Assembly (NCBI GenBank): GCA_028829895.1
Contig: CM054184.1
Span: 53,613,201-53,677,200, forward strand
DNA from: Sinotaia quadrata
Lineage: Eukaryota > Mollusca > Gastropoda > Architaenioglossa > Viviparidae
Direction: 5' to 3'
DNA: 64,000 bases
A program made the translations under genes and the position numbers. Below are positions 22,348-60,800 of the stretch, one piece after another; position 1 is the stretch's first letter, and every line of letters begins with the position of its first letter. The notes under the pieces are model-generated. The model searched no databases and was not told the DNA's origin. It was given only the letters and a program-made list of their open reading frames with translations.

Positions 22348-22463
22348 CTAAGTTACAGGTGGTGGCTCACATTGTGCACAGTTTCTGGCAAGATTGGCCA
22401 CATTTTCAAGGAATTTGTAGTAGGCATATTTGATGTCAAACTCCATGTCATACCATAGGTTCA
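22348..22463 (-). CDS. JMJD7: JMJD7 terminal coding exon
   Basis: Acceptor gtttttccag, then [18 protein letters not shown], ending in [10 protein letters not shown] and TAG (22350-22348). It lies about 4.3 kb from the previous exon, with a transposon-derived fragment in the intron between them. Confidence 0.92.
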
Positions 22464-25400
22464 CTGGAAAAACAAAAACAAAAACAACCTTTAATAGACA
22501 TATAATGTCAAACTCCATGTCCTATTAAAGGTTCATTGCAAAAAGAATAAATAATTTAGTAGGCATTTTATGTCAAACTCCATATCATATCATAGGTTCA
22601 TTGAAGAATAAAATAAAAACTTTTTCATAGACATTTGATGTCAATATCCATGTCCTACTACATGGCTCACTGCAAAAACAAAAATTACTTTAATAGGCAT
22701 ATTTGAATGTCAAACTCCAAAGATTCACAACTTAGTAGATGAAAAGCAGATTAACTCCCTTATGAGCATGATTTAAAAGGATAAATCTAAGAGAGATGAA
22801 AAGAAGTAGCAGATTTAACTCCCTTATGAGCACAATTTAAACGGATAAACCTAAGACAGATAAAAGGAAGCAGTAGATTTAACTCTCCCTTATGCACATG
22901 ATTTAAACAGATAATCCTAATAGAGATGGAAATAAGCAGTATATTTAACTCCTTTATGTGACTGTGATTAAACAGATAAACCTAAGAAAGATGGAAAGAA
23001 GTAGTAGATTTAAGTCGTGTGATTGTGAATAAAACAGAGAAGTCAAAGAAAGACGGAAAGAAGTAGTAGAAGTTCTCTCTGTGACTGGTTTAAGTCCTCA
23101 GTATGAGTGTGGTTTAAGTCGTCTGTGTGTCTATGATTTAAGTCCTCTGTGTGGCTGTGATTTAAAAAGAGAAATGTAAGACAGGTGAGGAAAAGTAGTA
23201 AATTTAAGTCCTCTGTGTGGCTATGGTTAAGCAGCAGACAACATTTTCATACAATAACTGGATCATGGAAGCAGACAACATTTTCATTTACTGAAAAAGG
23301 GGAAATAATGTCTGAATGCTGAATGAATAACCTCAACAAGAAGACTTTTCTTTGACAGGAAAAAATCAATCAGTTTAAAAAGAGGATTTAACACATGTAA
23401 TTTTAAACTTTACTTTCCAAAGTGTGTTCTAGCAACAACCTTATCCATGTTTTCCAAATTTAAATGAATAATTTAGACATACAAGCAAACTTAGACATAC
23501 AAGCAAACTTAGACATACAAGCAAAAAATTCAGATGTACAACAGTTGCTACGTGTCCAGTTTTTATTTATAGACCCTGCTTAGGAATTTATAGAATTTTA
23601 ATTTAGCAATTTAAATTAATTTCTCCTCGTTATCCTAAACAGACTGGTTGCTCAAATTCATCCTTCAGTTCTTACGAAAATGCGTCATGTAGTAAAGACA
23701 AACAGATTCTCGAACAGACAAACTTGCATACAATAGCCGGCTTGGAAACCGTTAAAACTCTCTTAAATAATTATGCATTCAGAATGTTACATTTAGCTCA
23801 ATCGTCCCCCATCCAAACCACAATTAGGTCTATATATGCATAAAATCACTACTAAAGAGGTCTTAACAAATAAAAGAATTTAATAATTAACATTAAACAA
23901 TAACAATTTGGTTAAGAAGACAAGCTTCGGATTTATGAACTATGGCACTATCTCGGTGCAATTATTCGATAACGTTAGAGTTCAAATGTTACGAGAAAGT
24001 TTGCGTAATATCGTATATGATTCGAGTGCATCGAGCAGTCACTTAGCTTGCTCAATGGTGTTGTTGATATACACGTGGTCTCGCGGCCAACATGGGTCCT
24101 ATCCACGTATCAACCAGTACATTCGTCGGTACTTGCCAATAGCTTCAGTAGCCAAACGTCTCTTTGATTGTTCAGCTACACTAGAGGTGTACTTGGACAA
24201 AGTATCGTCAATGGCAATGGCGGGAAACAGTACTTGTAACAGTAGCCCAACCAAGGTTAAAGTAAGGAACAAGAACCAAAACGTAGACAACGAAGAAACC
24301 CGCTCTGGAAATAAAATTTAGTTCCTATGAGCAATTTGCCTTATGTTCGCAAATCCAAAATGCACGTGGTCGACAATAATGTGCATAGTTTAAATCCTCA
24401 ACTATTGTGTCTTTTACAATATATTTATATTTATAAAAAGATACAATACAATCCCCTTTTATACACAAAGTCCTTGTACATTATTTTCACTGAGCTGACT
24501 AAAAACACACCCTCTCAGCACACAGCACCCCATCCAGCACTGCAAGTAGTTTCAAATCGTGCCGACGAATTTTCTGACTGTCCACTTCCCTTTAGTGCCA
24601 GGTATTGAATTCCAAGTTAACACCTTTAGTGAATGACCATCAATTTCCTGTTAACTACCTAACTCAGAGCACTCCTTATTTTTATTTTATTTTTAAAACT
24701 ACGTTACCACAGTGACTCATCGCCACCTGGCAAGCAAAGAAAGGATTGTACATGCAGGCTATCACATATAACTATTACAATATAAATCTCAACTTTCAAA
24801 TAACTCAAAATTCTACTCTAACAAGCGATTTCACAATAAAAATAGTTGACCTTAAACAATATTACTATCAAAATTTTATAGTGGTGATTTTTAAAAATAT
24901 TTTGCATCCCAAAACTCAGAGCCTGTTTTCTCACAGACAAAATTAGCGTCTCAGTGGCCTATCACGTATTCCCATACAAAACGTGATTTATTGTCTTGGC
25001 ATTGCTGACTGCAGAGAGGTAAATGCATGCGTCCTCGAAAACTAATCACGCCTCTCCATCCACCGGCATGAACTACCACCAAAACTTATCTCTTTCTCAA
25101 TTAACGTTTCCAAACTTAGGTTGCACATTGTTGACAAAATAGTTATTTTAGCCCTTTGCTATGTTTAAATTAATCTGACTGTTTCGTTAACCGTTTAGAG
25201 TATGATGACACTTAGAGAGAACAAAATTAAATAATATTCCCCAGTATCCGTGACAATCATTGTTCAAAATTCAAAGCATGAACTTCCGTCTCTTTGAACT
25301 TCTAAAATGCTCAGCAGTACGGATGTCTCTCTCTAGAGTCCAACAGTAATCAGCCATCATGACTGCATTTCAGCATCCCTGATACCTGGTCTCCATCTCT

Positions 25401-57800: not shown

Positions 57801-60800
57801 GAGATAGTATCATTATTATTGTGGTGTCAATGAACTTGTACGCATTATAACATATATGCATTTTATATATACTGTGCCTTGGACTTGGACAATTGCCGTT
57901 TGACTTGTACCATTTAATTGTTTGCTGCTTTGGTTCTGTCAGTTCAGAGATGGCACTTTATAAAAATAAAATTAACACTATTACAAATAACCTGTGTGTC
58001 TCTTTTTGTGAGTTTGTACAAGTGGCACTTCATGCAGAAGACAAAAAAAAACAACATACATCATCATCATAATCATCATCAGTGTCTTTTAACATTTGCT
58101 TCTGAGAGCAAGATACAAGAAGACACAATTTTAACATTAGATTTTGATTGCAATATTTTTATGTTAGTGAAAAATGTATTTTGCTAACCTTAACCCTAGA
58201 TTTTGATTGCAATATTTTTATGTTAATGAAAAAATGTATTTTGCTAACCTTAACCCTAATCATTTTGATAACAAAATTATCTAATTTTGATCAAATTGCA
58301 TCTTTAGTAAACCAAAGAGAACCCCTTGTACATTAGATTGAGTCACATTTTAAGAACAATGACAAGATACTTAGGGCAATTTCAGTCATAAACAAAAACT
58401 ATAAAAATTTGTGACTCATATTTAGCTGTATATTTGCAAAATAACTCCTTGTAAACACTGAAAACAAATGTTTGTAATTTCATTCAATTTTAAGCTGGAA
58501 CTCTGATTCTGCTCCAATTTAAAGTGAGTTGCCTTAGCATTAATTTTGCCAAAGCCGATTGCATTTATTTTTTATAGCTGAATATGTCAAATACAACATA
58601 CAACTTAAATGTTTTAAATTAAGCTTTAGAATAGACTCTAGAGTCTGCCTACCTGTTTCCACAATCATAAAGCATATCTACACGGTTGATCTGTGATTGT
58701 CCAGTTAATACATCCAGCTCCACTTCAAGGACTGTCGCTGCATATACATTGTAATGGAAACCATACTGGTCATATGGATTGGTGCTGAAAAAGAAATCAG
58801 TGTAAATTTCCTACATTCATAGTCTTGTAAATCAGTGTAAATTTCCTACATTAATAGTCTTGTAAATCAATGGAAAAAAGTATACAAAATAAATACTTGT
58901 TATCTCTGTAATAATATTTTTGTGAACCTTATTGTTAAATACTATTAATTTTTTAAAAGTCTTTTTAACTAAAAAGGCTAATAAAATATAGCAATATGCC
59001 AATTTTGATATAAAAGAGGTGATAAAATTTTAAAGCTCTGAAAGTCTGTTGGTTGCATTTCATATGGAATTTTTCTCAAATATGATTATATATATCAAAT
59101 AAGAACAATAATTTGACCATGCATATTAAAAATAATTAAACCTTGCAATCAGCAATATCAGAGTAATTCTAACATACTAGCTAGAGTAATTATGAAATTA
59201 AAAAAATGTATAATATATATACTATGCATGTGCTGTGAGGTCGATTCCCATTTGAAAACACTCTGTTACCAGCTGCTGCCATGTAGGGTTTTGCAATTTT
59301 TGTTTGATTGGTGCCATTCGGCTTTTAAGTGTTTGACAACACTGTATGACCCCCTGAAATAATAATCACATAAATGCTTATCATTTTATTATAATCATGG
59401 CAACAATTTTGTCAGCACATAAAATAAATATTTTACAAATTTTATTTTATAAAGAAACAGCAGATTAATATGCCAAATGGAAGACTATAACAATTTCTTG
59501 CATACAGTAAGTAATTAATGATGGTGAAATTGACAATATATAGTAGTTCATAATAATTTACCACACCTCAATTCTGCATCCTTTAACAGTTTAAGTCTTA
59601 ATCACCATTTAAGTGTAATCATGGATTTTCATTTACAAGCTTAAAAAATTATGAAGTATAAGTCAGTTACTACTCCCTCAAATAATTGTGTGAGATGGCT
59701 GTACTCCATGTAAAACAGCTGTGTCCATGGTATTGGAAATTTTGTAAGTTACAAATGTTCTCCTTTAGTGCAAGTTCAATATGCATTATGAGTACACAAT
59801 ACACAACAAAGATTCAACATTTCATTTAAACACTTACATGAACAATAAAGTGAGTACGCCTATTGATGTATGATTAACTTATCTGAGCAGATGGCAGCTT
59901 AATAGAATAACATCAGGTCTTTATAGTAAGACATATTGTGTAAACTGAGTAGATTTCAAAACAAAGAAGAAATCATACAAGCACTATATAACCACTGATT
60001 CAACTACCTTTAAAAGACAAAATAAATCATAATAAGAAGCAAAAGCATATACCTGTGAAAGGCATTGTCTCTATACCTCACTATTCACAGTTCTAACAGA
60101 CAGCAATTCTCTATTTACAGGAGTTCAAGAAACGGAGATCCCAGAGCAAAACTAACACTCTGGTCTCAGAAGAAAAAAAGTTGTAATAATTGTATTTAAT
60201 AATTGTATTAATATACAGAATTAATAAATATTATAATCATAAAGCCTTAATGTATTCTATTTTACAACACAATGAATATAAAAGCAAACATAAAAACCTT
60301 ACCATACAGTTATTCTACTTTACAATACATATAAAAGCAAACATAAAAACCTTACTATACAGTTATTCTACTTTACAATACATATAAAAGCAAACATAAA
60401 AACCTTACCATACAGTTATTCTACTTTACAACACAATGAACATAAAAGCAAACATAAAAACCTTACCATACAGTTATTCTACTTTACAATACATATAAAA
60501 GCAAACATAAAAACCTTACCATAGTTATTCTACTTTACAACACATATAAAAGCAAACATAAAAACCTTACCATACAGTTATTCTACTTTACAATACATAT
60601 AAAAGCAAACATAAAAACCTCACTATACAGTTATTCTATTTTACAATACATATAAAAGCAAACAAAAAACCTTACCATACAGTTATTCTACTTTACAACA
60701 CATATAAAAGCAAACATAAAAACCTTACCATACAGTTAAGTTCACTTGTGATGGATCCACCTGTTGTAATGGAATTGGCATTACTTATGGTAGATCCATT

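Follow-up and report, generated by a model that had tools for sequence, protein, structure and literature searches.

Mirage minisatellites, tandem arrays whose unit spans an exon–intron border, reportedly entered the literature with the amphioxus paper of Canestro et al. 2002, and they are the closest described relatives of the arrays analysed here, which accompany the JMJD7 gene and one border of a molybdenum hydroxylase gene in the gastropod Sinotaia quadrata. The stretch concerned, hereafter the window, comprises 64,000 nucleotides (nt) of contig CM054184.1 (assembly GCA_028829895.1, positions 53,613,201 to 53,677,200, forward strand), and all coordinates below count from its first letter. 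The excerpts of PMC3087553 and PMC3902484 cite amphioxus Adh3, the globins BflGb6 and BflGb9, PGBD5 and TnC as carriers, with units of 10–160 base pairs, both border types affected and many AG/GT dinucleotides kept; in the globins, splicing was undisturbed by reverse-transcription polymerase chain reaction (RT-PCR) and the arrays were proposed to contribute to intron gain. As far as these excerpts describe them, the amphioxus arrays resemble those of the snail in that the unit spans a 5′ or 3′ exon–intron border, has a similar length and retains many AG/GT, and they differ in that the snail host is a gastropod with five junctions of one gene affected at once. Snail JMJD7, for its part, has an intact reading frame.

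Two other kinds of system come close. The minisatellite of human IFI6 (6-16, G1P3) is said, by the title of a Nucleic Acids Research paper of 1995, to contain multiple splice donors, which recalls JMJD7 donor 38969 and molybdenum hydroxylase donor 60729, where a donor-like site sits in the array units; judging by that title the IFI6 repeats supply donors to transcripts, whereas the snail donor copies are known from sequence alone. Intron creation by internal tandem duplication is reportedly the subject of Gao and Lynch 2009 and Zhuo et al. 2007. Human tandem repeats at exon–intron borders within segmental duplications are described in the available part of PMC2812944. In such cases a duplicated exon and border sequence alters intron structure, as in the snail; unlike intron creation by internal tandem duplication, the snail locus shows existing introns lengthened and no new intron is evident. 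Among molluscs, an abalone gene has an intronic minisatellite for which the excerpt of PMC6905558 describes no link to splice sites, and our literature search, with most subscription papers outside its scope, recognised no mollusc mirage report. As far as that search reached, what is new is the occurrence of mirages in a mollusc and their density in one gene (5/14 JMJD7 junctions).

Exon-carrying repeats are supported at six junctions of the window and affect both border types, namely donors 38969 and 60729 (and 34554) and acceptors 30989, 26943 and 22463. They are listed below, a slash marking the exon–intron border within a unit.

38260–38974, minus strand: array at JMJD7 donor 38969, unit of ~37 nt (CTAGAG/GTAAAGTCATTGTAAACTCTTAACTCTTTAT), 17 aligned copies with 6 exon nt each.
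34219–34554, minus strand: old, decayed copies at JMJD7 donor 34554 (exon-probe p 0.0017, register-anchored p 0.036; tests explained below).
30989–31371, minus strand: array at JMJD7 acceptor 30989, unit of 38–39 nt (GAATTCCTAG/AGACATACCCTGCAG), 8 copies.
26917–27628, minus strand: array at JMJD7 acceptor 26943, unit of ~52 nt, 12 copies, 27 nt of it coding.
22421–22719, minus strand: array at JMJD7 acceptor 22463, unit of ~65 nt, 4 copies, ~43 nt of it coding.
60269–60738, minus strand: array at molybdenum hydroxylase donor 60729, unit of ~53 nt (TAACTGTATG/GTAAGG...), 8 copies, 10 exon nt.

The gene that harbors most of these arrays is laid out as follows.

22348–39008, minus strand: JMJD7 gene, eight coding exons with GT-AG borders and an open frame, 316 amino acids.
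39008–38969, 36499–36346, 34807–34554 and 32560–32504, minus strand: JMJD7 coding exons 1 to 4 of the open gene model.
31738–31643, 30989–30916, 26943–26784 and 22463–22348, minus strand: JMJD7 coding exons 5 to 8 of the same model.

Three open gene models give 34 predicted splice junctions (16 donors and 18 acceptors); a possible acceptor of the JMJD7 5′ untranslated region at 39041, supported by no protein sequence, is excluded from the counts. When exon-edge 24-mers were compared with the adjacent intron against a null of 586 internal-exon probes (the exon-probe test), p fell below 0.01 at four of the 34 junctions (34554, 26943, 22463 and 60729, the last with p 0.0017) and below 0.05 at seven, the additional ones being 30989 (0.012), 2069 (0.039) and 31738 (0.031). 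The signal at 31738 is probably due to chance, the nearest array being 472 nt off. At donor 38969 the overlap with the exon is a mere 6 nt, too short for this test to register (p 0.79). The register-anchored test located copies by their intron side alone and then scored the exon-side extension against 356 internal-exon probes. It reached its floor of p 0.0028 at 5/34 junctions, namely donors 38969 (19 anchored copies) and 60729 (8) and acceptors 30989 (10), 26943 (5) and 22463, the last resting on a single anchored copy; donor 34554 gave p 0.036. For the same five, with copies chosen by hand-set motifs, the own exon edge ranked above the edges of all other junctions of its type (16 donors and 18 acceptors in total). 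All p-values are nominal, the window having been singled out for this feature.

The individual arrays vary in anatomy. At donor 38969 the unit reads CTAGAG/GTAAAGTC... across the border, and GT is kept in 16/17 copies; over part of this array, GAG/GTAAAGTC and GAT/GTAAAGCC copies alternate in a higher-order repeat of ~74 nt, which points to exchange between units. Donor 60729 keeps GT in 8/8 copies. Donor 34554 has one exon-edge copy ~300 nt inside the intron with 21/24 exon nt matching, and a decayed period of ~90 nt can be made out by eye between exon edge and copy but is called by no program; Tandem Repeats Finder (TRF) called no array there, its nearest one lying 368 nt away. At acceptor 30989 the longer exon match, CCTG, is limited to the three exon-nearest of the eight copies. 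The coding part of the 26943 unit encodes VPWIAIDPL in the exon, and that of the 22463 unit a conserved stretch of 13 residues. The exon stretch common to the latter array (22421–22463) has A where five of five orthologues have N, the residues being IKYAYY here and IKYNYY, IKYNYF or IRYNYF in the orthologues.

Units are nearly all private, since only 10 of 3403 array pairs match: seven are near neighbours, two lie across exon 4 and one is distant. The pairs across exon 4 belong to one array family that flanks this 57-nt JMJD7 exon in two introns, 32211–32500 matching 33684–33775 and 33784–34185 with 77–81% identity; the weak distant pair, arrays 27901–28211 and 39738–39962, shares 69% over 204 nt. 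The direction from exon to array was assessed at 26943 alone. There, the consensus of the 12 copies reads CAA and AGT (Q, S) in place of the CCA and ATT (P, I) of the exon, and the proline is kept in all five orthologues read. It is the copies, not the exon, that hold non-conserved changes, which argues that the exon is the source and that the copies drift. Comparing the real junction with the copies, and the copies among themselves, the junction is no more diverged in three of five arrays (0.89/0.89, 0.97/0.93 and 0.75/0.68); at 26943 it is marginally more distant (0.85/0.87), and at 30989 the gap is wider (0.75/0.83).

Decoy strength was scored at 38969, 60729, 34554, 30989, 26943, 22463, 34807, 2069 and 6804 with matrices of approximate splice-site frequencies, over spans of our own choice. 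Donor 38969 is followed by 11 sites scoring at least as high as the real one in 670 nt, against 0.49 expected from array-free intron, and donor 60729 by 6 in 470 nt, against 0.11; donor 34554 has one such site (0.16 expected). Acceptors 30989 (5 versus 3.6 expected) and 26943 (7 versus 8.3) show no clear excess over array-free intron because the real acceptors are weak. At these two acceptors, the rows of decoy splice sites announced in the first-pass annotation are little, if at all, richer in scoring acceptor sites than intron free of arrays. Its proposal that arrays are tolerated because one good site survives agrees with acceptors 22463, 34807, 2069 and 6804, where nothing else in the scored span equals the real site, and conflicts with the two donors and their 11 and 6 rivals.

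Across five junctions, all 40 motif-picked decoy sites (38 with intact GT/AG) lead to a premature stop in silico, and within each donor array every decoy meets one identical stop. The splice dinucleotide is kept in 24/25 copies for GT and in 15/24 for AG. Set against the mean of the other dinucleotides of the unit, retention is 0.94 versus 0.76 at donor 38969 and 1.00 versus 0.88 at donor 60729, and among acceptors 0.58 versus 0.58 at 26943, 0.25 versus 0.57 at 22463 and 0.88 versus 0.59 at 30989. In none of the five arrays does the splice dinucleotide fall outside the range spanned by the others; at 60729 it reaches the upper limit of that range. The motif windows around copied sites are unremarkable. 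Selection against acceptor decoys was considered, since the difference between 24/25 and 15/24 (Fisher p 0.005) is suggestive, yet it was set aside as unremarkable beside the dinucleotides of the same arrays. Although few arrays are involved, this suggests that the copied splice sites are carried along neutrally. Splice-like motifs in the 35 non-junction intronic arrays, again few, number 5/4 for donors (sense/antisense) and 9/1 for acceptors.

At about three chances in four, we read these arrays as mirage minisatellites, that is, neutral tandem duplications spanning junctions and tolerated as exon-nearest sites win in long introns. Segments of ~37 to 65 nt spanning an exon–intron border would have been duplicated in tandem into the intron at 38969, 30989, 26943, 22463 and 60729, and probably also at 34554. 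Birth by tandem duplication may have been followed by amplification through slippage or unequal exchange. The intron would lengthen by repeated copies of its own border while the original junction stays outermost, preserving the protein, and the copied splice sites would ride along as neutral passengers. In JMJD7, borders are likely, though not proven, to undergo duplication at a higher rate than the rest of the intron. Local junction duplication as a route of intron growth had already been put forward in the first-pass annotation, and in-register exon sequence, private units and the drifted copies at 26943 all speak for it. Tolerance would come through exon definition, with the sites closest across the exon being chosen, which would always be the originals; the decoys are presumably tolerated because all 16 introns (438–4320 nt) exceed 250 nt and 17/19 exons are shorter than 260 nt. 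In human transcripts with introns >250 nt on both sides, the excerpt of PMC9225289 reports a preference for the competing sites closest across the exon. As far as that text describes them, the exon-definition regime and the exon-centric proximity rule fit the intron lengths found here as well as the GC contrast between exons (0.41–0.50) and introns (0.29–0.33). Under the classical rule, which runs the other way and prefers the sites nearest each other across the intron, the decoys would be at an advantage.

Several points weigh against this reading. According to the same excerpt (PMC9225289), under exon definition the preference for upstream 3′ splice sites is merely reduced and the evidence is weaker for 3′ sites, so the proximity rule suits donors better than acceptors. 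Use of the exon-nearest sites is deduced from the open reading frame and homology. In both donor arrays GT is, by inspection, kept somewhat above the dinucleotide average. Arrays touching or entering an exon occur at 5/34 junctions against 2.3 expected (p 0.084; by rotation within introns 5/32, p 0.075), which is suggestive only, and the molybdenum hydroxylase gene taken alone has no significant excess of junctions with an array end 10 nt away or less (rotation, 2/14 versus 0.9 expected, p 0.23).

The two last points serve equally the strongest alternative, a serious contender that we nevertheless think the less probable account, namely that there is no junction preference at all: minisatellites would arise anywhere in introns, exonic ones would be purged, and exons would act as a wall at which arrays pile up. 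As already remarked in the first-pass annotation, arrays are common away from exons. The 83 merged tandem arrays make up 29% of the non-coding sequence of the window, so an array beside an exon is weak evidence by itself, and none of the 83 lies wholly within an exon of the three genes. Array ends do lie within 10 nt of a junction at 8/34 junctions against 2.8 expected (p 0.006), six of these eight in JMJD7, and rotation within introns gives 8/32 against 2.8 (p 0.004). A wall, however, puts no exon bases into units, and if the 46 intronic arrays had been seeded uniformly, 1.14 would be expected to cross a junction, where five are seen (p 0.005). Without 30989, whose array TRF extends just 1 nt into the exon, four remain (p 0.026).

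If junctions were instead hot spots of mutation at which tandem duplications arise, say because of DNA lesions coupled to transcription or splicing, introns would grow outward from them. We regard this as unlikely, even though JMJD7 offers some encouragement: rotation places array ends within 10 nt at 6/14 of its junctions against 1.5 expected (p 0.0016), and its crossing arrays number four against 0.56 (p 0.002; three, p 0.017, without 30989). The signal is driven by one gene, in a window chosen for the feature. With a similar measure of doubt we speculate that in the snail lineage junctions may be preferred birth places of minisatellites via transcription- or splicing-coupled duplication, that introns may grow outward, and that only exon definition in long introns would keep such ladders of equal sites harmless.

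Intron gain underway, with junction duplicates turning into new exon–intron pairs as proposed for the amphioxus globins, seems to us very unlikely. The anatomy is the same as that in the excerpt of PMC3087553, but the snail gene model requires no copy as an exon. A role in splicing appears slightly less probable still, whether as redundancy against mutation or as unproductive splicing that lowers expression. The donor decoys that equal or exceed the real site, the 40/40 premature stops and the slightly elevated GT of both donor arrays would suit it. Across the five arrays, however, the splice dinucleotides show no clearly higher retention than the others, a result that also leaves the buffering or regulatory redundancy once suggested for these arrays unsupported; moreover, including almost any piece of intron would be expected to bring in a premature stop, and the decoys of a donor array share one stop. 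Dispersed satellite insertions or an assembly artefact hardly come into question: copy numbers of tandem arrays are often misassembled, but the units contain host exon sequence and the copies differ from each other, and a dispersed satellite is rejected on the scarcity of shared units (10/3403 array pairs, seven of them near neighbours).

Under the mirage reading, rows of up to 17 copies of a real splice site beside the original offer a natural test of spliceosome choice, which bears especially on the exon-centric proximity rule for long introns. Mirages in a mollusc also suggest that the phenomenon extends beyond lancelets and may be a general route of intron lengthening, neutral for the most part.

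The first-pass annotation had named 12 junctions, grading those of JMJD7 as clear or weaker, at which the adjoining array unit would contain the splice site, often with exon bases. All 12 coordinates fit as splice borders of the three open reading frames, including acceptor 30989, which matches the final JMJD7 model, where it replaced acceptor 30974; 32503 is the first intron base, the exon ending at 32504. Exon bases are supported at the six junctions treated above, are borderline at 2069 and find no support at 34807, 32503, 36499, 36346 and 6804. Thus, of the seven JMJD7 cases taken as clear, 38969, 34554, 30989, 26943 and 22463 hold, while 34807 (p 0.65) and 32503 (p 0.16) do not; the weaker 36499 and 36346 drop out (register-anchored p 0.48 and 0.43, with arrays 64 and 47 nt away, respectively). 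Outside JMJD7, donor 60729 stands (p 0.0028), 2069 is borderline and 6804 falls away (exon-probe p 0.90, zero anchored copies, array 31 nt away). The remaining arrays of this set are as follows.

34816–35588, minus strand: arrays lying 8 nt from JMJD7 acceptor 34807, with no support for exon bases in their unit.
32211–32500, minus strand: array lying 3 nt from JMJD7 donor 32504, likewise with no support for exon bases.
1939–2079, plus strand: borderline case at left-gene acceptor 2069, 11-nt exon start GTGACACAGCG with one full upstream repeat.

Acceptor 2069 combines an exon-probe p of 0.039 with zero anchored copies in the register-anchored test. Two further arrays lie close to junctions, both with no anchored copies: 58794–58876, which is 9 nt from molybdenum hydroxylase acceptor 58784 and absent from the first-pass annotation, and an array 13 nt from donor 3859.

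The identity of JMJD7 is well supported by its product, which matches Pfam Cupin_8 (E 1.3e-77) and solved JMJD7 structures (E 1e-107). Among the best 120 of 1099 hits, its nearest named proteins belong to the caenogastropod snails Nucella lapillus (74%), Babylonia areolata (73%) and Littorina saxatilis (73%). The other two gene models are partial.

48730–63342, minus strand: 3′ part of the molybdenum hydroxylase gene, aldehyde oxidase/xanthine dehydrogenase-like, eight exons within the window.
2069–7508, plus strand: 3′ part of the left gene, possibly DNA/RNA non-specific endonuclease-like, three exons.

Profile and homology searches for the molybdenum hydroxylase used a preliminary exon join, the final gene model being made afterwards. 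For the left gene, also searched as a preliminary exon join, there is a weak Pfam match to DNA/RNA non-specific endonuclease (19.9 bits against a curated cut-off of 23), and ENDOD1-like is a working name only. Within the last JMJD7 intron, an open stretch at 25954–25712 on the minus strand, preceded by the acceptor-like CTCTTCAG, has no Pfam match and looks like repeat-derived coding sequence. A reverse-transcriptase RNase H remnant (Pfam RT_RNaseH, E 5e-11) at 45502–45314, also on the minus strand, is a piece of a retrotransposon.

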